From positions 1 to 53,201 of IMG/VR virus record IMGVR_UViG_3300044797_000084: 53,201 nucleotides of DNA; one strand, 5' to 3'. Below, in pieces: positions 6,135-51,480 of this stretch. The notes beneath the pieces were generated by a model. That model searched no databases and was not told where the DNA came from. It was given only the letters and a program-made list of their open reading frames with translations. Both the position numbers and the translations under genes were made by a program. Position 1 is the first letter of the stretch; every line of letters starts with the position of its first letter. This DNA is from a virus.

Positions 6135-6346
6135 GGACAGCATGCCATTAGAAGCTCGCGGGCGTGCTCTATCTCCAAAGCCGTGTTGTACTGGTCCTCA
6201 AGCAATTGGTCGTACTCGCGCTGCTGCCGCGTCTCGGCTGCCCGGCGTTCGTACTCCCGGTCCTCCATGTCACGCTCGTAGTCACGCTCGCGCCTCAGTC
6301 GTTCATCGCGCATCCGATCACCCGTCCACTCGCTCCCCGCGCTCAC
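6131..6346 (-). CDS. charged coiled-coil protein
   Basis: The 71 residues are dominated by Arg and Glu in heptad-like order (RDERLRRERDYERDMED and similar), predicting one long helix or coiled coil. The GTG start overlaps the upstream stop. It could be a dimeric scaffold or nucleic-acid-binding helix; the low complexity prevents a family call. Confidence 0.6.
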   Translation of the reverse strand: MSAGSEWTGDRMRDERLRRERDYERDMEDREYERRAAETRQQREYDQLLEDQYNTALEIEHARELLMACCP

Positions 6347-6633
6347 GCCCGTGCCTGCCTCTCGGGCTTCGGTGTCCAGCCTGTGATGACCCGGTAGTGG
6401 CTGTTGTGGCCGTCGTCGTCATCGACTGTCGCGCCCCACTCGGCGAGAGCGGCTTGGACGACCTTGCGCGCTTTGAGCCGCCATGCTTTGCCGATGACCG
6501 GGTGGTCTTGAATCGCCTCCCACGGCACCACATCCTCGCCGCGATCGAAGCGCTGCGCGTGCTGCCTATCAACCTCGTACATGGCCCTCGCTGCCGCCTC
6601 AACCACGTTCTCAGGTATGGCGAGCCCGCTCAC
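6343..6633 (-). CDS. phage hypothetical protein with VEAAARA motif
   Basis: The 96-residue protein opens with PENVVEAAARAMYE and later has AWRLKARKVVQAALAEWG. This bipartite helical pattern recurs in small actinophage proteins of unknown role, often beside replication genes. The GTG overlaps the nuclease stop. Cytoplasmic; function unknown. Confidence 0.6.
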   Translation of the reverse strand: MSGLAIPENVVEAAARAMYEVDRQHAQRFDRGEDVVPWEAIQDHPVIGKAWRLKARKVVQAALAEWGATVDDDDGHNSHYRVITGWTPKPERQARA

Positions 6634-7571
6634 GTCCTCACCGCCCGGTTACGCGCCCCGCAAGCGCGGTCAGCCTTGCGTTGGGCGGCCATCGCCGCAT
6701 TGACCCTTTCGCGTGCGTGAAAGACGTGCACGAGTGCGGCGCAGTCCTCGGCTGTCGCGGCGCAGTCCTCGATCTCGACGTTCCCGCCGTCATCTATTGC
6801 GACGATCACGATCCGGCCGGGCGGCTCAATCGAGCACGGCTCGAACGCCTCGGCGTACAGTCTCGTTTGCCAATGGGCCTGCTCGAAGATGCGCCCCTTG
6901 GCTGATGTCTTCCAGTCGATGAGCGTGCGCTGGCCGCGCGACCAGCACAGCAGGTCCGGGCGTCCCGCGTAGCCCAGCGCCGGGTTACAGACCGTGAACT
7001 CCACGAACCGCTCACGGTCGTAGGGGTCGATCGGCTCCGGGCGCAGCTTCAACCACGCCTTTGCACAGCCCTGCACCCACGGCGCCCAGGCCTCTGGGTA
7101 GTCCGAGAACCGCGGCGGCTGGCCCGTCACGGCGAGCGTTTGGAACGCCTGATGGATCGCCTTCCCACGTTCGCTGGCCTCATCGCGCACGGCCGCTGCG
7201 CCAAGGCCAAGCGAGCGGATCCGCTTCACGACCTGGTCGAGCGCAACGCCATCAAGCTCACCAGCCATCATCGCTTGCACCGCGCCGCGCGCCCCGTGGT
7301 CTTCATGCCAGTAGTACAGCGCCTCCTTGGAGAGCAGGCCGACGATCGAGGACACCGAGTCCAGTTCCTCACCGTCCAGTAGGTAACGCCGACGGCGCGT
7401 CTTCGCGGGCTCGCCCCGCAGGGTCAGCCATGCTCCAGCGGGTAGGTCTTCAAAACGCAGCAGCCCGACGCCCGGGATCTCCCGCTCGAGCACGTCGCCA
7501 TCGACTACCAGCGTCTGCTCCATCGCACATGGGACGAGCGACAGGTCCTCGACGGCCAGGTCGGGGGTCAC
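6630..7571 (-). CDS. PD-(D/E)XK nuclease, Cas4/RecB-like
   Basis: This 313-residue protein has the order of a RecB-family exonuclease: H140 in ASERGKAIHQAF, E191 in RFVEFTV, D206 in GYAGRPDLL, the D219-x-K221 pair in LIDWKT, and the QxxLYAEA motif at about 236-242. These residues coordinate metal for DNA hydrolysis. No four-Cys iron-sulphur cluster set is apparent, unlike many Cas4 proteins. The GTG overlaps the preceding stop (GTGA); the longer in-frame extension upstream is not coding-like. It probably processes phage DNA ends during replication or recombination. Confidence 0.85.
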   Translation of the reverse strand: MTPDLAVEDLSLVPCAMEQTLVVDGDVLEREIPGVGLLRFEDLPAGAWLTLRGEPAKTRRRRYLLDGEELDSVSSIVGLLSKEALYYWHEDHGARGAVQAMMAGELDGVALDQVVKRIRSLGLGAAAVRDEASERGKAIHQAFQTLAVTGQPPRFSDYPEAWAPWVQGCAKAWLKLRPEPIDPYDRERFVEFTVCNPALGYAGRPDLLCWSRGQRTLIDWKTSAKGRIFEQAHWQTRLYAEAFEPCSIEPPGRIVIVAIDDGGNVEIEDCAATAEDCAALVHVFHARERVNAAMAAQRKADRACGARNRAVRT

Positions 7572-11793: not shown

Positions 11794-11890
11794 TGCGCCC
11801 GACGTGAATCGAACACGCGACCTGCGGCTTGAAAGACCGCTGCTCTTCCCGCACCCCGAAGGTTACGGTTAACCACTGAGCTACGAGCGC
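11794..11890 (-). tRNA. tRNA-Glu (UUC) with a 24-nt D-loop insertion
   Basis: Acceptor GCGCTCG pairs with CGGGCGC and has discriminator A. The D stem is GCTC/GAGC, the anticodon stem GCGGT/GCCGC with loop CTTTCAA (anticodon UUC, Glu), and the T arm has loop TTCGATT. CCA is not encoded. Removing 11846-11869 leaves a standard 73-nt tRNA. The 24 extra bases sit in the D loop and can fold into a hairpin with a UUCG tetraloop (ACC/GGT next to the loop). The gene directly follows the papain-like peptidase and is co-oriented with it. The cloverleaf is clear; whether the insertion is removed or tolerated is unknown. Confidence 0.8.
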
Positions 11891-12976: not shown

Positions 12977-13342
12977 TTATTCTCGTTCCGTTTTTTGTTG
13001 GTGGTTGTCGCGGGCTCTGCGGCGATTGCAGGCCCGACATAGCCGCGTTCCCCGCTTGGTGATATGCGTATTCAGCAGGTCAAACGCGTGCCCGTACTTG
13101 CAATGTGTCTGTCGCGAGTGTTTCGCAGAGGTGCCCTCTCCGCGCAGCACATTCTCGCCGCGCGTCACCGGCTCCATGTGCGCTGGATTCACACAGGCGC
13201 GCACACGACAAAGATGGTCTATCGATAAGTCGCCGATAGGGCCGACTATCCGTTCATAGGCAAACCTATGCGCCTTTGTTGGCTTGAATTGCCCGTAACC
13301 GTCAGCATCAAGGCTTGCCGTCCAGAGCCAGCACGGTCCCAA
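12977..13342 (-). pseudogene. HNH endonuclease lacking a normal 5' end
   Basis: The coding frame carries a classic phage HNH: GPCWLWTASLDADGYG, AHRFAYERIVG, IDHLCRVRACVNPAHMEPVT, then CKYGH and CRAC zinc pairs. The recognisable protein begins earlier: in the same frame upstream reads DPAERFWAKVNKDGPVPEHR (to about 13413), typical of the family, but no ATG or GTG lies before an in-frame stop near 13463. The only start left is the TTG at 13342, which omits that conserved region. The 5' end appears lost where it meets the rightward fragment at 13429-13593. Confidence 0.6.
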
Positions 13343-13428
13343 CTCGGGGCGGTGCTCAGGGACGGGACCGTCCTTGTTGACCTTCGCCCAAAAGCGCTCG
13401 GCTGGATCGCGGGCCGCAACGCAAGAAA

Positions 13429-13593
13429 GTGCTCGCCCTGATGGAGCTGGGGATCGTGTTCAAGACTCGTGCCCGTGACGGCAAGACGGCAACGGTTTCG
13501 GCTGTCAAGTGTGACCGCTGCAAAAGGAAGTGTCTGCGGACTCACCCCGACATGTCGAAGGCCGATGACCTCGACAACCTGGATCAGTTCTAA
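13429..13593 (+). CDS. fragment of a rightward zinc-binding protein
   Basis: The frame encodes VLALMELGIVFKTRARDG, KTATVSAVKCDRCKRKCLR and an acidic tail ending DNLDQF. CDRCKRKC suggests zinc binding. GTG 13429 and ATG 13441 are possible starts, but neither has a Shine-Dalgarno site. The open frame continues upstream into the antisense of the HNH gene, so this is probably a 3' remnant of a longer gene. Its stop overlaps the stop of 13590-13865 in convergent orientation. Confidence 0.4.
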   Translation: MLALMELGIVFKTRARDGKTATVSAVKCDRCKRKCLRTHPDMSKADDLDNLDQF

Positions 13594-14531: not shown

Positions 14532-14614
14532 GGCCGGTCGATGCCTTGACGCTGCTCTGCTTCGGGCATCGCAAGCTCGGGAAGCAGCAGAAACCGAGCG
14601 CCCGGCCGTCTCAT
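14528..14614 (-). CDS. 28-residue minicistron
   Basis: ATG overlaps the stop of the membrane protein upstream, and its own TGA overlaps the next ATG. The peptide reads MRRPGARFLLLPELAMP with a polar tail. It may mainly carry ribosomes between genes of the lysis set. Confidence 0.35.
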   Translation of the reverse strand: MRRPGARFLLLPELAMPEAEQRQGIDRP

Positions 14615-42642: not shown

Positions 42643-43263
42643 GTGTCCATCTGCTCAGTCGACGGGTGTGGGTCGAAGGCGAGGGGCCGCGGCCTTTGCA
42701 GCAAGCACTACCAGCGCTGGTTCAAGCATGGAGATCCCCTCGTCGTGCTCTCGCCCCCGGCGGTCGTCGTCGCGGGCGAGCGCTATGGGCGCCTTGTCGT
42801 GATCGGCGACGCGGGCAGTACGGCACGCGGGCAACGGCGATACAAGGTGCGGTGTGACTGCGGCAAGGAGACGACGGTGGTCGGCGCCTCGCTTCGCGGG
42901 GGTGCCACGCAGTCCTGCGGCTGCCTGCACCGTGAGCGCTTCCGCCACGAAGCACATGGGCGCAGCGGCACGCCGGAGTACCGCACCTGGCAGGCGATCA
43001 TCCAGCGCTGCACGAATCCGAAGGATCGTGCCTATCGGTATTACGGCGCGCGCGGGGTGAAGATCTGCGAGCCCTGGCGGAACTCGTTCGCGACGTTCCT
43101 CGCCGACATGGGAACGAAGCCTGGGCGCAGCTACAGCATCGACCGCATCGACGAGGATGGCGACTACGAGCCGGGCAACTGCCGATGGACGACGATCAGC
43201 GCGAACTCACGCCGCGCCCACCTCGGCAAGCCGCACATCGATGGCCACTCCCACCGCCGCTAG
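42643..43263 (+). CDS. HNH homing endonuclease, opposite orientation
   Basis: From GTG 42643 the protein has 206 residues. It has an N-terminal zinc region (CSVDGCGSKARGRGLCSKHY), a beta DNA-contact domain (CDCGKETTVVGASLRGG, CGCLHRERF) and the C-terminal module TPEYRTWQAIIQRCTNPKD, YYGARGVKICEPW, SIDRIDEDGDYEPGNCRW typical of phage homing nucleases. It is antisense to all tail genes, sits between connector and terminator, and its stop shares CTAG with the connector stop. ATG 42634 is an alternative start. Confidence 0.8.
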   Translation: MSICSVDGCGSKARGRGLCSKHYQRWFKHGDPLVVLSPPAVVVAGERYGRLVVIGDAGSTARGQRRYKVRCDCGKETTVVGASLRGGATQSCGCLHRERFRHEAHGRSGTPEYRTWQAIIQRCTNPKDRAYRYYGARGVKICEPWRNSFATFLADMGTKPGRSYSIDRIDEDGDYEPGNCRWTTISANSRRAHLGKPHIDGHSHRR

Positions 43264-44240
43264 CCCAAGCCTACCTGCGAAAAACTGGACAACCGCGCTT
43301 TGACCTCGGGCAGCATAAACGGAAGCAGCCCAGGCTCGACCTCGCCGTGCTCGCCCGCCATCTGCGGATCGCCGCTGCGTGATGCCTGCTGCTCTTTGCG
43401 CCACTCGAACGCGATCTGTTTCAAGGCGGCGTTGCGGACCGGCGGCGGCAGAGGATCAAAGCCAGCGGTCCAGACCACCTCGATGTTTTTCACACCGGGA
43501 AACCAGGGGCGCCCGACAAGGCCCTGAAAGGAGCGCACGAGATAGCCACGCAGCGGGTCCACCGTGTACATTTCGTTTGACCCCTGGTGCTCGGGTGTCT
43601 GTTCTTCGAGCACGTGTTCGCCGTTGACTCCCCACCACTCCGCGACGCGTATCGGCGACCCAACGACCGGGTAGTAGGGCAACATCAGCGTGTTGCTGTT
43701 GAAGACCGAGAACCGTTTGGCGAACGTCGTCGGGCCGAGCGGGCGCCCCAACTCGTCTTGCAGCCACCAGCACACGTCGTCTACGACTTCCTTCAGCTTC
43801 GTGTCTTCGCCCGCGACAGGCACGTCGTCCATCTGCAACCAAGGGCGAACGTCGGCGTCCACATCAAGGAACGTGGACCACTGCGGGGTCGTGTCGTAGG
43901 TGTAGGCGTTCCCGGGGTCTGATAGGGGCAGCAGCGAGTACAGGTCTGTCGTGCCGGGGCCGGTCGGGACGGTGATCCAGAATGTCTGCGGGTCTTGGCC
44001 GACGACGCGCAGGTCGAGCCGGTATTGCGTGTTGCCGGGCGTCGTTTCGCTATCGCGATTGGAGGGCAGTTCGACCGACATTTCGCCGGCGCTGTTGAAG
44101 GCGGCCGTGACGGGTTCGGGCAAGATGCTTTGGCCAGGCTGGCTCATCCTTTCGCTGAGCGTGAACTCAGCGGCGCCCGCGAGCGCGGCACCCGACGGGC
44201 TGGCGAACTTGTGCGTGATCGTGCGGCGTGAGAACGCGAT
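43260..44240 (-). CDS. head-tail connector protein with probable ATC start
   Basis: The 326-residue form has an N-terminal beta domain (AFSRRTITHKF, SPSGAALAGAAEFTLSER), then VTVPTGPGTTDLYSL-like strand regions and a helical connector part: DDVCWWLQDELGRPLGPTTF, PVVGSPIRVAEWWG, GYLVRSFQGLVGRPWFPGV and ALKQIAFEWRKEQQASR, as in gp6/gp15-type adaptors. The first ATG is at 44147, but the frame upstream is clearly protein and is preceded by CAGGAGGTGCATC directly before the codon ATC at 44240. In relatives I recall, this position is the initiator Met (MAFSRRTITH). The gene should join portal and tail. Confidence 0.7.
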   Translation of the reverse strand: MAFSRRTITHKFASPSGAALAGAAEFTLSERMSQPGQSILPEPVTAAFNSAGEMSVELPSNRDSETTPGNTQYRLDLRVVGQDPQTFWITVPTGPGTTDLYSLLPLSDPGNAYTYDTTPQWSTFLDVDADVRPWLQMDDVPVAGEDTKLKEVVDDVCWWLQDELGRPLGPTTFAKRFSVFNSNTLMLPYYPVVGSPIRVAEWWGVNGEHVLEEQTPEHQGSNEMYTVDPLRGYLVRSFQGLVGRPWFPGVKNIEVVWTAGFDPLPPPVRNAALKQIAFEWRKEQQASRSGDPQMAGEHGEVEPGLLPFMLPEVKARLSSFSQVGLG

Positions 44241-44257
44241 GATGCACCTCCTGCGAG

Positions 44258-44263
44258 TAAGCT
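44258..44263 (+). promoter_or_regulatory. -10 box of gene 44271
   Basis: TAAGCT ends 7 bp before ATG 44271, with no Shine-Dalgarno site. A leaderless transcript is predicted, divergent from the connector gene with only 30 bp between start codons. Confidence 0.45.
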
Positions 44264-44270
44264 GCTGGCG

Positions 44271-44603
44271 ATGAGGAAACGGCTGGAGCCAAAGGACACA
44301 GCCCTCCTGTGGGCGCAGTCCGAGGTTGCCTACTCGCTGAACCTGTTCTTGTTCGGCGTGGATGGCAAGGATGACCCCGGCAAGCTAGACGCAGGCGCGC
44401 GAGAGCTAGCAGCGTTTCTGCTCATGCGCTCAACGAACCAAGCATGGTTCGCCGCGTTGGCTCAGCACGGATGCTCGGGGCGAGAGCCCGATGGCAGCTT
44501 CCCATGCAAGTCCTGCAACGAGATCAGCACGCTTGGGACGGAGCGTCTGTGGCCCGTCCTTTATCCCGAGCTTCCATTCAGCGGGCTCACCCCCAGGACG
44601 TAG
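44271..44603 (+). CDS. hypothetical protein
   Basis: The 110-residue protein is helical at its start (ALLWAQSEVAYSLNLFLFG), with a DAGARELAAFLLMRSTNQAW segment and a Cys trio (HGCSGREPDGSFPCKSCNE). A lone rightward gene ending convergently, with a 17-bp overlap, against the first glycosyltransferase-like gene. Perhaps a moron. Not recognised. Confidence 0.55.
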   Translation: MRKRLEPKDTALLWAQSEVAYSLNLFLFGVDGKDDPGKLDAGARELAAFLLMRSTNQAWFAALAQHGCSGREPDGSFPCKSCNEISTLGTERLWPVLYPELPFSGLTPRT

Positions 44604-45207
44604 TGCCCTCTGATCCTCGAAGGGCATGGTCGAGATAGAAGCGGGTCTCTGCGTCGGGCTCGCGCTGATACCAGCCCATGTGCCTGGCTTGGAATGGGGC
44701 GCCCGTGCGGATCGCTTGGTAGCCGAACCCCGTCCCGGCGCGGTAGAGCGCGAACGTGGTGTCGATCAAGCTCCCGTAGACGCCGGGCTCAAGCTGGCGT
44801 GCCTCACAGACCAGCTCCTGCTCGTGGGCGAGTGACGGGATGTCTCCCACGTCGTCCAGGTAGAGGCCGACGCCGGCCTTTGAGAACTGCGGGTAGCGGT
44901 CGAGAAGCTCGTGCAGGTGCTCGACTAGGTCCAGCGGGCAGTCATCGGTTGGGACGACATCAGGGTCTGTGTAGACGTAAGGAGCGTCTGGCACGAGCCC
45001 GGCGTGCCACAGCGCGCGCGAGCCGAGATTGCGCCCCAGCTTGACCACCTTGTGGGGCGACTGCGACAGGTAGTCCAGTAGCGGCGGCCACGAGCTGGCG
45101 TTATCGAGAAGGGTCAGATTGTCGTAGCCCGCGCGCTCTAGCCACTCCACAAGGGCGCGCAGGTCAGTTAGACGATCACGAACATTGATTAGGACCGGGC
45201 AGTCCAT
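44587..45207 (-). CDS. glycosyltransferase-like protein
   Basis: 206 residues from ATG 45207, which overlaps the preceding gene. VLINVRDRLTDLRALVEWLE, NLTLLDNASSW and the metal-binding DxD in YVYTDPDVVPTDDCPLDLVE fit a GT-A fold family 2-like enzyme that moves sugar from a nucleotide donor. The C-terminal lobe (TTFALYRAGTGFGYQAIRTG) is the acceptor region. It is the last gene of the leftward sugar array. Confidence 0.7.
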   Translation of the reverse strand: MDCPVLINVRDRLTDLRALVEWLERAGYDNLTLLDNASSWPPLLDYLSQSPHKVVKLGRNLGSRALWHAGLVPDAPYVYTDPDVVPTDDCPLDLVEHLHELLDRYPQFSKAGVGLYLDDVGDIPSLAHEQELVCEARQLEPGVYGSLIDTTFALYRAGTGFGYQAIRTGAPFQARHMGWYQREPDAETRFYLDHALRGSEGTTSWG

Positions 45208-45806
45208 AGGTGGTGGCGCCGGTTGAACAGTTCGGTGTCCTCGTCCCAGGCCGCGCGCCCAATCTGATACACCCAGTCGTCCTCGCCCTTCCCGGCCGCA
45301 GGGTGCAGGTGCTCGACGATCGACTCGGGACACTCGACGAGCCGGCCACGGTGGCGGGCGGTCCCGAAAAACTCACCATCGGTGTAGTTATGTCGGTATC
45401 CCTCGTGCAGAATGCCGGGGCCGTCGATCGTGCCGAGGTCCGCGTAGGCGCGTGCGACGAGGGCCATCGTGCCATGCGGGTTGTGCAGGTCGTTGACGAC
45501 GACGACGCCCTCATCCATCACCGCGAGTGCTGCGGAAAGCCAGCCCGAGTGGAACAGCACATCCTCGGCACCGAGGAACAGGCAGGGCTCGCTCGTCTCT
45601 CGGTAGCCGAGGTTGATGCGCTTCGCCCATGAGCCGCCCTCGTCACGGATCACCTGCGCGCCCGTGAGCTGCGCGAAGTCGGCGACCTCTCCGGTTGCGA
45701 TCAGGTAGACGGTATGCGGCTCGGGGGTCGCCTGCTCGATGTTCTCCACCAGCGGGGCGAGCTTCGCCGGGCGCATCGCCGGGATCAGGATGGCGGTGCT
45801 ATCCAC
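45189..45806 (-). CDS. glycosyltransferase-like protein
   Basis: The 205-residue product from GTG 45806 (overlapping the gene before) starts DSTAILIPAMRPAKLAPLVE and has GSWAKRINLGYRETSEPCLF followed by LGAEDVLFHSGWLSA, where AEDV takes the DxD place. The C-terminal NNLHNPHG-like region and HPAAGKGEDDWVY suggest substrate contacts. GT-A family 2-like; donor and acceptor unknown. Confidence 0.65.
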   Translation of the reverse strand: MDSTAILIPAMRPAKLAPLVENIEQATPEPHTVYLIATGEVADFAQLTGAQVIRDEGGSWAKRINLGYRETSEPCLFLGAEDVLFHSGWLSAALAVMDEGVVVVNDLHNPHGTMALVARAYADLGTIDGPGILHEGYRHNYTDGEFFGTARHRGRLVECPESIVEHLHPAAGKGEDDWVYQIGRAAWDEDTELFNRRHHLWTARS

Positions 45807-46404
45807 AGATCTGCCCTGGGGTCTTGCCGTAGGTCCAGGTGGCGACGGGCACACAGCGGAACATCGGGTAGCCAGACACAAGGCGCTGCCAGAGTGCCCA
45901 ATCCTCCCACCTTGCGTTGGTCCCTGCGTAGTGGCCGCCCTCCCATGGTCCCGGCCCCTCCCAGTCGGTCGGGAAGCCGCCAGCCTGCTCAAGCAGCGAG
46001 AGACGGATCAGGCAGTTGCCATCGATGAAGTTCGTCTCGGCGAACGTCTCGGCGAGCTTCTCATGCGACCAATCGTTGCAATCGACTCGGGGCTTTGAGC
46101 CGCTCGCGTCGTAGGTGTAAACGACATCGGCGTCGTGGAGGTGGGGGAGCACCGTCTCGACGTGGTGCGGCAACCAGGAGTCGTCGTCGTTGAGGACCGC
46201 AACCCAGGGCGTCCTGACGGCAGGCAGCAGCGAGTTCTTGGCCCGTGCGTACTGCACCATTGGCTCGTCGTCGCCGACCGGATGCGAGCAGACGAGCTGG
46301 GCCGTGACAGGGATGGTCTGGGCGTTGACTGAGGCGATGTTCTCGGCCAGCAGTGCCTCGCGGCCCTTGATGGTGGCCGTCAGGACTGTGATCGGGGCCT
46401 GCAT
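45799..46404 (-). CDS. family 2 glycosyltransferase
   Basis: 201 residues. It opens APITVLTATIKGREALLAEN, has AVLNDDDSWLPHHVETVLP with the DDD motif that binds the nucleotide-sugar metal, and NFIDGNCLIRLSLLEQAGGF then WEDWALWQRLVSGYP, the classic ED of GT2 enzymes. This is the clearest GT2 in the set. Overlaps the gene before by 25 bp. Confidence 0.8.
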   Translation of the reverse strand: MQAPITVLTATIKGREALLAENIASVNAQTIPVTAQLVCSHPVGDDEPMVQYARAKNSLLPAVRTPWVAVLNDDDSWLPHHVETVLPHLHDADVVYTYDASGSKPRVDCNDWSHEKLAETFAETNFIDGNCLIRLSLLEQAGGFPTDWEGPGPWEGGHYAGTNARWEDWALWQRLVSGYPMFRCVPVATWTYGKTPGQICG

Positions 46405-47117
46405 GTGCTCCTGCTCGGGATCGGGTCATACACGGTCGGCACGGCCAGCCATGCCTCGTACTCTGCGCGGAGCTCGTCAGGGGCCATCCCTTCCAAGCGG
46501 GTGTGGTGGCTGGCGTCGCCGCGCGCGCGAGCGGCCGGGTCCAGCGTGGCGTTGCGTTCGCTGACCTTACGCAGGAAGTGCTCGAAGCCTCGGTAGTGCA
46601 GCTCGCGGATCTCGAGGACGTTGACCAGCGTCGTGAGGCCAAGGTCGCTGACGGCGTGGTTGCCGTTGGTCAGCACCCGGCCGGGGCGCGGACGGAAGGC
46701 GATCTTGCCCAGGCGCTCGGGCTCGACACGCCGATGATTCCAGTCATGGTGGAGGTAGCGTTTGACGTGAAGCGTGTCGTAGGGGCAGCCGGTGAGCAAC
46801 GCCGCGATGGACTCGCCGTTCGTCGTGGCCCAGAACTCATCGATGTCGGAGGCGAGCACCCAGTCTGCACCGGCCTGGCGCGCGCGCTCCGCGAGCTCGT
46901 TCATCAGCTCGGGCTGGCGATGGATCGGGCCGGGTGCGTCCTGCCAGTAGACGCAGCCCCTCTCGCGGGCCAAACGGATCAGCCTCCCGCGGGTGCCCTC
47001 GCCAGGGTCCGAGCTGTCGGCGACGAGGATTAGGTCGACGCCCTCGGCGAGCATGTGTCGCAGCGAGCACTCGACGATATCCGACTCATTCTTCGACGTA
47101 TAGATGGCGGCGATCAC
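46380..47117 (-). CDS. glycosyltransferase (GT2-like, DIDEF type)
   Basis: From GTG 47117 (GTGA overlap) 245 residues. VIAAIYTSKNESDIVECSLR begins like family 2-related enzymes with a KNE motif. GADWVLASDIDEFW holds the DxDEF metal site, and YLHHDWNHRRVEPERLGKIA follows. Resembles DUF23/Glyco_tranf_2_4 proteins. Probably cytoplasmic, acting on a phage or host glycan. Confidence 0.7.
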   Translation of the reverse strand: MIAAIYTSKNESDIVECSLRHMLAEGVDLILVADSSDPGEGTRGRLIRLARERGCVYWQDAPGPIHRQPELMNELAERARQAGADWVLASDIDEFWATTNGESIAALLTGCPYDTLHVKRYLHHDWNHRRVEPERLGKIAFRPRPGRVLTNGNHAVSDLGLTTLVNVLEIRELHYRGFEHFLRKVSERNATLDPAARARGDASHHTRLEGMAPDELRAEYEAWLAVPTVYDPIPSRSTCRPRSQS

Positions 47118-47800
47118 GGCACCGCAACCACGTGCTCCCAACCCCCGAGCCGGCCCTCCAGCTCCGAGAAGCCAGCGAACCACGCCGGGTCAACAGGGTT
47201 AGGCCAGAACGGCTCGTGTGTGGAGAGATGCAGCGGGACGCCCTTGGCGGCGAGGAACGGGGCGACGCTCTCCAAGACGAGCGCCTCCGATCCCTCGATG
47301 TCCATCTTGACCAGGCAGCAGTCCTCGATCTGGTAGTCGGCGAAGATCCGCTGCAACGTGAAGCACGGCACCGTCTCGCTTTTCTCGCTGTCGGCGTAGC
47401 GGAGCACCGAGGACATCGAGGATGCCCAGCCTTGGGGGTGGCTGGAGATCGTGCAGGTGCCGTCGTAGTCGGCGACCGCGGCGCGCACGCAGCGGACCTT
47501 GCCGGGCACGTTGCGCTCGCAGTGACGGACGAGATACTCGTAGGCGACGGGGTCGGGCTCGACAGCGACCACGTTCGCGCCGTGGCGCGCGGCCCACATC
47601 GACAGAGCACCGATGCACGCGCCGAGATCCACGAACGTCTGGCCGGGCTTGACGAACCGGGCCATCACGTCCAGCGTGTCGCGCTCCCAGTTATCGGCGC
47701 CCCATTCGTTCCAAAAGCCGGGGGTCGGGCCTTCGGTGTAAGGCGGGTCGAAGGGCGGTTCGTCTACGTCCCAGGTGACGCCGCGTCTGGTGATCTTCAT
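47114..47800 (-). CDS. FkbM-family methyltransferase
   Basis: The 228-residue protein shows the SAM-binding motif VDLGACIGALSMWAARHG, the acidic VVAVEPDP loop, an N-terminal PGQTF and KMDIEGSEALVLESV, all marks of FkbM methyltransferases. These add O-methyl groups to sugars or small molecules. It is coupled by ATGA and GTGA overlaps to the acyltransferase before it and the glycosyltransferase after, so it likely caps the glycan. Confidence 0.85.
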   Translation of the reverse strand: MKITRRGVTWDVDEPPFDPPYTEGPTPGFWNEWGADNWERDTLDVMARFVKPGQTFVDLGACIGALSMWAARHGANVVAVEPDPVAYEYLVRHCERNVPGKVRCVRAAVADYDGTCTISSHPQGWASSMSSVLRYADSEKSETVPCFTLQRIFADYQIEDCCLVKMDIEGSEALVLESVAPFLAAKGVPLHLSTHEPFWPNPVDPAWFAGFSELEGRLGGWEHVVAVP

Positions 47801-48345
47801 GTCGCCGGGACCCCTCTCACTGTCTCGCCCGCGGGCACGTCATGGATCACCACGGCGCCGGCGGCGATCGTTGCCCCGTCGCCGATCTTCAGCAGGTTGC
47901 AGATCGTGGCGCCCGCGCCGATGAACACGGCCTCGCCGATCTCCACGTCGCCGCAAATCGTCACGCCCGGGGCGATCGTCGTGAACGCCCCGACGGAGCA
48001 GCGGGTGAGCGTGGACGCATAGTTGATGTGGACGTGCTGGCCGAGGGTCGCCTCCCTGAGCAGGATGGCGTTCGGGGCGATGACGCAGCCGATGTCGATC
48101 TCGCTGTCGGGGTTGACGATGGCCGCCGGGTCGATCAGCGAATCTGCGGCATGCGGCCAGCGTTGTGCGACCTGCTGTCTGGTCTGGGGGTCGTTGACCG
48201 CGATCAGTACGGCTGGGCCCGCACCACCCCAAGGGAATGATCTCAGGACCGTCTCATCGAGCACCGATAGCTTGCGTCCACATCGCTCGGCGACGGCTTG
48301 GATGTCCCGGCTGTGCGAGCCGGTCCCGATCAGCACGTCTACCAT
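47797..48345 (-). CDS. PglD/NeuD-type sugar acyltransferase
   Basis: The 182-residue protein has an N-terminal nucleotide-like fold (DVLIGTGSHSRDIQAVAERC) and a left-handed beta-helix of hexapeptide repeats: IGCVIAPNAILLREATLGQH, GAFTTIAPGVTICGDVEIGE and IGAGATICNLLKIGDGATIA. A His in the HVHINYAST loop is the likely catalytic base. PglD/NeuD relatives acetylate amino or sialic sugars. Shine-Dalgarno GGAGGGCTATCG. Confidence 0.8.
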   Translation of the reverse strand: MVDVLIGTGSHSRDIQAVAERCGRKLSVLDETVLRSFPWGGAGPAVLIAVNDPQTRQQVAQRWPHAADSLIDPAAIVNPDSEIDIGCVIAPNAILLREATLGQHVHINYASTLTRCSVGAFTTIAPGVTICGDVEIGEAVFIGAGATICNLLKIGDGATIAAGAVVIHDVPAGETVRGVPAT

Positions 48346-49013
48346 CGATAGCCCTCCGATCGACGGACGCCGATGTGCTCGCACCGCGGGGCGTCCTTGC
48401 GCGCGCCGAGGTAGGCGAATGAATAGCCGTGCGCGAGCAGCGTGTCGGTGATGCCGCGCTCAAGGCCGTCGCCGGGCTCGGCCAACGCCAGCTCGATCGC
48501 CTCGCGCCGGATCAAGCTGGGATTCAGGCTGAACAGCCGCCGGTGTTCGACAAAGCCCTGACGGTCGGTGTACTCGTTCGGGGCGACCTCGATCTGGCCG
48601 CCGGCGGCGATCTCCTGCTCGCCCCATGGCTGGCGCTTGAGCACCACCTGGGCTAGATGCGGGTTCTCGTCGAGCAGTCGGGCCATGCCCGCCAGGTCCA
48701 CGGGCTCGCGGTAGATGAAGTCGTCCTCGGCGTGGAAGACGTAGCGAGCGGGGGTTGCGAGTGCCAGCGTCCAGGCCAAGCGGACGGCGGCAGCGAGCCC
48801 GCGACGCGACGAGTGCGGACAGATCGTGAAGTCCGGTTCGTAGCGCCGATGCAGCATGATGCTGTAGGCCGAGTCGCCCGAGTCATCGACCACGACGCGC
48901 CACTCGGGCCACGGGTTCAGCGAGACGCGCAGACTGTCGATGGCCTGGAGCAGATAGTCGCCGCGGCCGTCCGTGGTGACGGTCAGAGCGAATGCCAAGG
49001 CGGCATCCCGCAC
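48339..49013 (-). CDS. glycosyltransferase-like protein
   Basis: 224 residues from GTG 49013. It has FALTVTTDGRGDYLLQAIDS, LNPWPEWRVVVDDSGDSAYS and YVFHAEDDFIYREPVDLAGM; the EDDF is the metal motif of GT2-like enzymes. A C-terminal half with RQPWGEQEIAAGGQIEVAPN would bind acceptor. Coupled to the acyltransferase by a 7-bp overlap. Confidence 0.7.
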   Translation of the reverse strand: MRDAALAFALTVTTDGRGDYLLQAIDSLRVSLNPWPEWRVVVDDSGDSAYSIMLHRRYEPDFTICPHSSRRGLAAAVRLAWTLALATPARYVFHAEDDFIYREPVDLAGMARLLDENPHLAQVVLKRQPWGEQEIAAGGQIEVAPNEYTDRQGFVEHRRLFSLNPSLIRREAIELALAEPGDGLERGITDTLLAHGYSFAYLGARKDAPRCEHIGVRRSEGYRW

Positions 49014-49017
49014 CGGA

Positions 49018-49149
49018 TCATCCAGGCAAGCTCTCAGACGAGAGCTCCTTCATGGCCTGCACGATGAAGTCCAGGCAGCGTTGCTGTCGTTCGCGCTCTC
49101 GCTGTCGCCGCCCGCAGCGCCAGCGGATCAATGCTGCCACCCGTCTCAT
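49018..49149 (-). CDS. 43-residue basic helical protein
   Basis: ATG overlaps the stop before it. The sequence MRRVAALIRWRCGRRQRERE is strongly basic and ends QAMKELSSESLPG. It could associate with the membrane or nucleic acid. Minor gene inside the sugar array. Confidence 0.4.
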   Translation of the reverse strand: MRRVAALIRWRCGRRQRERERQQRCLDFIVQAMKELSSESLPG

Positions 49150-49340
49150 CAGATCGAGCCTTCCGACACGCGCCGCAGCGCGAGCCGTGCCGTGCGCAGG
49201 TTCGCCTCCGCCCGCTCCTTCGTAGCCTGGGCACGGTCGAAGACCTCCGCTGCTTGCGCGTGCTGGCGTACGGCGTCCTGGAACTGGCGCAGCGCTTCCT
49301 GCTGGTGCTTCTCCTGTGCCGTGGGCCTGCCGAGCTTCAC
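49149..49340 (-). CDS. coiled-coil protein
   Basis: 63 residues from GTG 49340 (GTGA overlap), nearly all one helix: EKHQQEALRQFQDAVRQHAQ, RAQATKERAEANLRTARLAL. The N terminus VKLGRPTAQ is basic. Probably dimeric. No function known. Confidence 0.5.
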   Translation of the reverse strand: MKLGRPTAQEKHQQEALRQFQDAVRQHAQAAEVFDRAQATKERAEANLRTARLALRRVSEGSI

Positions 49341-49522
49341 GCTGGCCTCCAACGGCCAAGGCCCTCGCACCAGTTCCGCACGCCAGCGAAGATGCGCTCG
49401 ATGGCCGTCTCCAGTTCGACGACTGTCATCTCGTCTCTGATGAAGCACTCGCGTGCCTGCGCCAGCGCCCAGTCTTGCGCGCGCTCGCGCTCAATGAGCG
49501 GGTGCGCCCTCACCGCCAGCAT
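49337..49522 (-). CDS. hypothetical helical protein
   Basis: ATG 49522 gives 61 residues; GTG 49513 would give the GTGA overlap typical here. The protein (LIERERAQDWALAQARECFI, VVELETAIERIFAGVRNWCE) is helical and acidic. It and the next two small genes split the sugar array into two parts. Confidence 0.5.
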   Translation of the reverse strand: MLAVRAHPLIERERAQDWALAQARECFIRDEMTVVELETAIERIFAGVRNWCEGLGRWRPA

Positions 49523-50037
49523 CCGTGCGCCGGCGCGATCGCCCAGGGTGCCGATGGCGAGAACTCGTCCCTGATGTGCCTCAGCGGTGGCCCATGCACA
49601 TGCATCGTCTCGCCTCCAGGATTCAACACATGGGACTGTAGCCAGGTATCCAGTCGGCACCAATGCTTAGGTTCGTGCCCCTCGTCGGATAGCTCGGCGA
49701 TCGTGTCGAGCGCGTCCGGGTATCGGGCGAGCAGCGCGGCCGAGAACTTCGCGCACGAGAGCCCCGCATACAGCCGGCCGACGTAGGGCACCTGGAACGA
49801 GCACCATGGGTGGTGACACTGCTCAAGCTCGTCGAGAGAGTCGGGGCGGACAACTACGTCCTGCTCGACGTTGATGAAGCTGGCGCCCTTCGCCCAAAGT
49901 CCCGCCAGTAGCTCCCAGTACGCCTCGTCGCTCCCGGACACATCGACGAACGCCACATCCCAGCCTGCGAGTGCCTGGACTACCTCGGGGCGTAGCCGGG
50001 TGTAGGGCTGAACGACGGGAGTCTCGTGGCCCCGCAT
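49510..50037 (-). CDS. glycosyltransferase-like protein
   Basis: The 175-residue protein has a Shine-Dalgarno GTAGGAGGTGCG. VVQALAGWDVAFVDVSGSDE and ASFINVEQDVVVRPDSLDEL mirror INVEHDHEVSDDLIQ of the gene at 50719, an E-x-D metal-like motif; PWCSFQVPYVGRLYAGLSCA follows. It is short for a GT and may be a single GT-A domain. Assignment rests on the motif and neighbours. Confidence 0.55.
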   Translation of the reverse strand: MRGHETPVVQPYTRLRPEVVQALAGWDVAFVDVSGSDEAYWELLAGLWAKGASFINVEQDVVVRPDSLDELEQCHHPWCSFQVPYVGRLYAGLSCAKFSAALLARYPDALDTIAELSDEGHEPKHWCRLDTWLQSHVLNPGGETMHVHGPPLRHIRDEFSPSAPWAIAPAHGCWR

Positions 50038-50055
50038 CGCACCTCCTACGCCAGC

Positions 50056-50679
50056 TCATACGAACAGCTCCGCCGCCGGCCATCCTTTGTTCAGGTCCTT
50101 CACGGTCGGCTGGCCCAGCCCAATCCACCGCTCAGCATCGAACCGTGATCGTGTCGAAGGCTCAGGCAACGTGCGCAGGTAGTCGCAGCGGGCCATCCAG
50201 AAGTTGCCGCCGAAGAACGGGGTGCCGTCGGAGAACTCCTGCTCGAAGCCTTTGGGACCGTAGACCTCGCGGGTGAGCCAGTGGCAGCCCACAGCGTCGA
50301 AGCGCTCAAGGTGCTTGAGGTTGATCCGCCAATCGCGCACGACCAGCTTCGTCATGCTCCGGCGCCATTTGGCCCGGAAGTCCGTCACGTCCTGGGCACC
50401 CTTGGTGTGGGCGTAACAAACCGCGCCATCATGCTCCAAGGCGTACTCGCGGACTGCTTTCAGCGTGACCTGCTCGAAGCCTTCATCGGCCTCGACTGCT
50501 ACGCGCACGTCCAGCGGGTCGAAGGCGTCGCGCGCCGCGTCGCGCCAGAGCTTCGCCCCCACCAAGCCGAGATAGACCGGGGCGCTCCAGTCAGCGGCGA
50601 GCAGTGCGTCTACATGCTCTAGGACGGGCTCGGTCCAGGAGCCGCCTGTAAAGCAGTGGTAGAAGTGCGCGACGTTCAA
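50056..50679 (-). CDS. glycosyltransferase-like protein
   Basis: The 207-residue product starts at TTG 50679 (NVAHFYHCFTGGSWTEPVLE). AVCYAHTKGAQDVTDFRAKW, RSMTKLVVRDWRINLKHL and TPFFGGNFWMARCDYLRTLP are typical of bacterial glycan-synthesis proteins with an H-x-KG and GGNFWW-like signature. Donor unknown. TTG is an unusual start and no strong Shine-Dalgarno is visible. Confidence 0.55.
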   Translation of the reverse strand: MNVAHFYHCFTGGSWTEPVLEHVDALLAADWSAPVYLGLVGAKLWRDAARDAFDPLDVRVAVEADEGFEQVTLKAVREYALEHDGAVCYAHTKGAQDVTDFRAKWRRSMTKLVVRDWRINLKHLERFDAVGCHWLTREVYGPKGFEQEFSDGTPFFGGNFWMARCDYLRTLPEPSTRSRFDAERWIGLGQPTVKDLNKGWPAAELFV

Positions 50680-50718
50680 GCGGGCGGTCGTTGGGCTGAC
50701 TCCATGGTGCCGGTTCTC

Positions 50719-51480
50719 CTATCGGTGGAAGTGCTCGACACCGACGAGGTTACCGTCAGCATCGGGTTTCCAATGCACGTGCACTCGCTCATCGACTGCT
50801 TGGAACACCGCGATGTCCACGAACTGCCAGGTCTGCTCAGGCAACGGCCGCACGCGCGCGCTCGGCTCGATCTTGCAGAACCCGATCCCGCCGAAGTCCG
50901 CCCACTCGTCTCCCGTCTCGATCCACACTCCGCCGCACGGGGGCTGTTTCCCGGTGCGGTGAGCCCAATGCGGGCCGCCCGACGGAATCCCCAGCCAGTA
51001 GGCCCAGGTCCCGAGTGCACAGTCGCAGTCGAGAAGCTGCTGGATCAGGTCGTCTGAGACCTCATGGTCGTGCTCCACGTTGATGATTGTTCGGTCGGAG
51101 TCCCACCAGCGCGCGACCCCGGCGTGGTAGTCGAGCGGGTCCTCGCAGCAGATCGGCACGACCTCGAAGCGCTGCGACTCGAAGATCGGCTCATCGGGCA
51201 AGTGGCTGGCGAGAACAACCGGCTCGGACATTCGCCCGAACCTTGCCACACCGCACCACACCCGACCACACCCGACCGTGCCATGCCCCGCCTTGCCCGA
51301 CCTGAGCACGCCGTATGAAGGATCCAGACGGGTGACGCGAACCAATGGGAGTGGCTCAGCTCGTCTGGCCTGCGGGTCATCGGCAACGTCTGACCCGTTC
51401 GGCACGTACCGCCCGCTTGGGGGATTGTGGCACCGGAGATATGCCAGCCCAATACGCGCCTTCTCGTCAGCAGTCAACAT
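50719..51480 (-). CDS. glycosyltransferase-like protein with N-terminal extension
   Basis: From ATG 51480 (GGGAGGGCCGT) the chain has 253 residues. The first 60 (MLTADEKARIGLAYLRCHNP...) are followed by a stretch encoded by the 10-bp repeats (GTVGCGRVWCGVARFG), then at M84 the enzyme proper: SEPVVLASHLPDEPIFESQR, TIINVEHDHEVSDDLIQQLL. Start at ATG 51231 would give only the 170-residue domain. The fusion may have arisen by repeat expansion over a lost stop codon. Confidence 0.5.
   Translation of the reverse strand: MLTADEKARIGLAYLRCHNPPSGRYVPNGSDVADDPQARRAEPLPLVRVTRLDPSYGVLRSGKAGHGTVGCGRVWCGVARFGRMSEPVVLASHLPDEPIFESQRFEVVPICCEDPLDYHAGVARWWDSDRTIINVEHDHEVSDDLIQQLLDCDCALGTWAYWLGIPSGGPHWAHRTGKQPPCGGVWIETGDEWADFGGIGFCKIEPSARVRPLPEQTWQFVDIAVFQAVDERVHVHWKPDADGNLVGVEHFHR
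51245..51280. repeat. 10-bp tandem repeats
   Basis: Units CCGCACCACA (51251-51260), CCCGACCACA (51261-51270) and CCCGACCGTG (51271-51280), with a partial unit before, form a short tandem array inside or just upstream of the glycosyltransferase-like gene. Such slippage-prone repeats could change the reading frame. Confidence 0.5.

Follow-up and report, generated by a model that had tools for sequence, protein, structure and literature searches.

The fused virion protein gene and its start region

The window analysed here is the whole stretch of 53,201 bases that makes up the virus record IMGVR_UViG_3300044797_000084 of IMG/VR. Its minus strand carries, at 43260..44240 including the stop codon, a gene for a fused virion protein, in which an N-terminal tail-fibre-like domain is joined to a head-tail adaptor (connector). 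The N-terminal domain covers about residues 1-112 (43905..44240, minus, with an approximate right-hand limit) and matches the tail fibre family phrog_14726 at aa 8-109, resembling the N-terminus of tail-fibre proteins. The adaptor part (43263..43904, minus, its left border with the N-terminal domain being approximate) matches the head-tail adaptor family phrog_442 at 2.9e-11, with aa 130-287 aligned to positions 92-228 of the 270 in the profile. No PDB match was found by sequence. Two AlphaFold models reached a mean pLDDT of 39 and 55, and at this low confidence they point to two strands ahead of Met32, at residues 5-11 and 23-30.

With its end at 43260, the frame stays open over 374 codons, and between the upstream stop and the ATG at 44145..44147 (minus; codon 32, Met32) the window offers no in-frame ATG, GTG or TTG. 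The putative start is an ATC at 44238..44240 (minus), codon 1 of a 326-codon frame, with 48 of the open codons lying upstream of it. Around this site the minus strand reads CTCGC AGGAGG TGCATC ATC GCG TTC TCA CGC CGC ACG ATC ACG CAC, in which AGGAGG occupies 44252-44247 and ATC 44240-44238, separated by a spacer of 6 nt. The AGGAGG belongs to an extended Shine-Dalgarno (SD) sequence, AGGAGGTG, at 44245..44252 (minus), whose duplex with the anti-SD has an energy of -13.9 kcal/mol. The SD also contains a GTG (44247-44245), which is not in this frame. The original prediction had stated that no ATG, GTG or TTG precedes the ATG at 44147, which holds across the frame including the 48 codons upstream of ATC, and that ATC follows AGGAGG by exactly 6 nt, a spacing we confirmed on the minus strand. 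It had also boxed the feature at 44238-44250; the site is correct, but the box omits two nucleotides of AGGAGG.

Related contigs and probable host

A scan of IMG/VR returned four related contigs from other records. The alignment of the N-terminal region begins at residue 1 in all four, the outcome that the original prediction had asked of homologues. Three of them align from residue 1 to the end of the protein, at 89% identity in G001 (L002), 84% in G002 (L003) and 78% in G003 (L004), while the fourth, G004 (L005), has about 60% identity in the N-terminal region and encodes this domain as a separate ORF. A single frame holds both the phrog_442 and the phrog_14726 part in four contigs; in the remaining one they are split. 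All five members match phrog_14726. All counts out of five given below refer to the window plus these four contigs, which form the entire known set; scans of viral contigs with the L004 and L005 proteins, the N-terminal domain and the neighbouring tail gene gave no further relatives, and scans of genome contigs gave no prophage relatives. Since the neighbouring tail protein is nearest to those of Arthrobacter and Streptomyces phages, the host of these little-known phages is likely to be actinobacterial.

Conservation of the ATC codon and its Shine-Dalgarno sequence

The pattern GGAGGTGC-N-Y-C-ATC-GC stands at the N-terminus in 5/5 contigs. The invariant columns run from -11 to -4 (GGAGGTGC) and from -1 to +4 (C ATC GC), and identity upstream of the SD drops to 23-36%, about random. 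The invariant C of ATC says little by itself, because DNA this rich in GC uses ATC for nearly every isoleucine. None of the five contigs has a canonical start near the conserved N-terminus; an in-frame GTG lies 28 codons upstream of ATC in G001 alone and is not common to the others. A degenerate DNA scan permitting ATC or ATG returned the four contigs, all with ATC, and no ATG form of the gene; it also returned one unrelated phage gene (L037), in which GGAGGTGCGCC is followed by ATG at the identical spacing. The original prediction had named phage relatives whose protein begins MAFSRRTITH. None came to light: ATC stands in all close relatives, and no close homologue with an ATG start was found. 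Streptomyces and other actinobacterial phages contain distant relatives of the N-terminal domain, which there form the beginning of minor tail or collagen-like proteins. Their N-termini read MLPEG..., MTQPV... or VPWSN..., and the annotated ones use ATG or GTG. In the phrog_14726 alignment, profile position 12 falls on residue 8, so relatives would start within a few residues of the ATC.

In codons 2-31, pN was lower than pS in 10/10 contig pairs (for example 0.05/0.33 and 0.31/0.71), which indicates that this segment is under purifying selection. The 31 codons before the first ATG had been described as protein-like, and this comparison bears that out. Between the most distant contigs pS reached 0.6-0.76, meaning that substitution is near saturation and that there was ample opportunity for reversion to ATG, GTG or TTG. 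Recurrence in independent contigs marks the arrangement of ATC and SD as conserved rather than an artefact of sequencing. The original prediction had named a misread ATG as an alternative, and this is excluded on the same ground. The broader idea of a sequencing or assembly error, or of the decayed start of a dead gene, draws on nothing except the oddity of a single sequence; we consider it extremely unlikely, given an identical codon in five contigs with differing upstream sequence, a frame under purifying selection and four relatives that contradict it.

ORF finders place the start at the Met32 codon, the first canonical one, which would leave the 31 upstream codons untranslated. We judge this ATG to be internal, and a start there very unlikely. 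The protein-level conservation of codons 2-31 reaches across the whole segment that it would leave out, the strong SD is located at the ATC, the first two predicted strands (in the low-confidence models) would be deleted, and Met32 is missing from G004, where the ORF of the domain has no ATG. The original prediction had allowed that homologues might start at this internal Met (44147); none do.

Two further readings place the start beside the ATC, and both are improbable. Translation might begin out of frame, at the GTG in the SD (44247-44245) or elsewhere, and enter the frame by a +1 shift; this GTG is present in 5/5 contigs, and wrong annotation of such a GTG start is known from sigR (PMC5472188). 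However, it belongs to the SD itself, so no SD is left to serve it, no slippery site is present, with CAT, CGT or CGC as the variable codon preceding the shift point, and the invariant columns are better explained by a simple start 6 nt from GGAGG. Alternatively, the codon preceding the ATC might be used: it is GTC in three contigs and ATC in the window, and GTC is the codon with which sigR starts (PMC5472188). Against this, the codon is variable (ATC, GTC or GCC, the last in G002) and lies only 3 nt from GGAGG, while the ATC next to it is invariant.

Split arrangement in one contig

The connector of G004 is encoded by a shorter ORF that starts at an ATG of its own, preceded by GGGGGTG; 0.6 kb upstream of this ORF sits that of the N-terminal domain. 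Between the two, at about 6160-6745 (L024), lies an HNH-like gene on the opposite strand. The domain ORF has 111 codons and no ATG anywhere, with its first GTG 39 codons in, and an in-frame stop occurs only four codons before the ATC (CGG AGG TGC GTC ATC). Given the position of this stop and the lack of an ATG, the domain could be made only from a start at or next to the ATC, or through a frameshift. As the ATC of this contig governs the N-terminal domain alone, the constraint follows that domain. The earlier suggestion that the start codon sets connector dosage is only partly supported: it suits the fused gene of four contigs, but in G004 the connector relies on a separate ATG and SD.

Strength of the ribosome-binding site and RNA features

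SD pairing at the ATC ranges from -12.9 to -13.9 kcal/mol in 5/5 contigs. Among 121 other genes the mean was -5.6 (sd 3.4) and only one reached -13.1, although for these genes the start was chosen automatically as the candidate with the best SD, which if anything flatters their values. The SD before the ATC is among the strongest ribosome-binding sites of these genomes.

A structural RNA at the start was rejected, since folding was no better than in shuffled sequences. Conservation of the ATC might also stem from a divergent promoter. A -10-like hexamer is present upstream of the gene, but by eye no -35-like hexamer lies over the ATC at normal spacing, and this candidate was also set aside.

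ARAGORN found no tRNA in the window. Rfam gave one at 11794-11890 (minus, 59 bits) that ARAGORN had missed; its anticodon, read by eye, is TTC, its D-loop is unusually long, with about 20 extra nt, and the copy in G002 is nearly identical. Because this sole Rfam tRNA reads TTC, no altered initiator tRNA explains the AUC. Rfam also placed a CyVA-1 RNA, an sRNA family of unknown role, at 14532-14607 (minus).

Neighbouring genes and other flagged starts

An automatic start check flagged other ORFs shared by these contigs, most of which proved to be shadow frames or to carry a canonical start close to the conserved N-terminus, and no other gene among the common ORFs clearly has such a start. For this reason the ATC looks like the property of one gene rather than a sign that start codons are relaxed throughout these phages. 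The one possible exception is the HNH endonuclease ORF at 12977-13459 (minus), where a conserved RFWAKV region lies before the first canonical start; this may reflect a frameshift, decay of the gene or a second unusual start.

The five contigs differ in the opposite-strand ORF that lies immediately upstream of the ATC gene; every one of these ORFs has a TANNCT hexamer ahead of its start, at a distance of 6-8 nt. In the window this is a divergent ORF of 110 aa at 44271..44603 (plus), probably a leaderless accessory gene, with the -10-like hexamer TAAGCT at 44258-44263. The position appears to be a hot spot of insertion, and the ORFs that occupy it appear to be leaderless accessory genes. Farther upstream of the connector, 44587-51480 (minus) holds a row of roughly eight ORFs, several of which resemble glycosyltransferases or a methyltransferase; a Pfam scan of one of them returned nothing.

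Proposed initiation at AUC

We estimate a probability of about 85% that translation initiates at the AUC codon at 44240-44238. This estimate rests on the conserved ATC, the strength of the SD, the selection on codons 2-31, the domain ORF of G004 and the unremarkable folding. The original prediction of an ATC start is thereby strengthened: the codon is kept in five contigs behind a very strong and well-spaced SD, the codons that follow appear selected, and no homologue starts at Met32. The extended SD (GGAGGUG, with the AUC 6 nt after GGAGG) would hold the 30S subunit in place and compensate for the codon-anticodon mismatch with fMet-tRNA, and the mature protein would begin (fM)-A-F-S.

In bacteria, IF3 discriminates against AUC. 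The yield would hence be expected to stay below what the SD alone would give and to rise at lower IF3, in the manner of infC in actinobacteria and sigR in Streptomyces, and by this analogy output is probably limited by host IF3. The control by IF3 level that the original prediction had proposed would be consistent with this. The ATC arrangement is kept by selection, most likely because it keeps the N-terminal domain, together with the adaptor where the two are fused, low in amount or responsive to IF3; that a limited dose is of benefit is our conjecture. As a tentative extension, which we put forward with considerable reserve, this lineage of actinobacterial phages may keep an IF3-gated AUC with an extended SD so that the dose of the adaptor-linked tail-fibre-like domain is tied to the free IF3 and the ribosome state of the host during infection, as a translational timer or dose control in a structural gene.

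Comparison with known systems

To our knowledge, very few natural start codons of the AUC type have been established, chiefly in infC, with sigR (GTC) as the actinobacterial precedent. In the literature searched we found no report of a phage gene with an ATC start. If the AUC reading is true, viruses have adopted the design of a weak codon with a strong SD, and in a structural gene, and this gene offers an easy way to find out whether phages make use of IF3. It would also follow that gene finders restricted to ATG, GTG and TTG truncate such proteins, by 31 residues here, or overlook them entirely, the split domain of G004 being a case in point.

The infC gene of Streptomyces begins with ATC (PMC5472188). 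The infC (IF3) genes, with AUU or AUC, share with the phage gene the class of start codon that IF3 discriminates against; infC, however, is a host gene autoregulated by its own product, whereas a phage virion gene would be under outside control only. The closer parallel is Streptomyces sigR, an IF3-repressed gene whose GTC start follows the extended SD AGGAGGTG; this start is conserved across species and was proved by mutation, Edman sequencing and IF3 mutants (PMC5472188). While sigR is a regulatory gene with an experimentally proved GTC, the phage gene codes for a virion protein and has a predicted ATC start. Their anatomy is nearly identical, with the same extended SD before a non-canonical start, conservation, and a likely actinobacterial setting. 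A weak start with a strong SD is already a known design, and by the sequence comparisons above what these phages add is a conserved non-canonical start in a virion gene.
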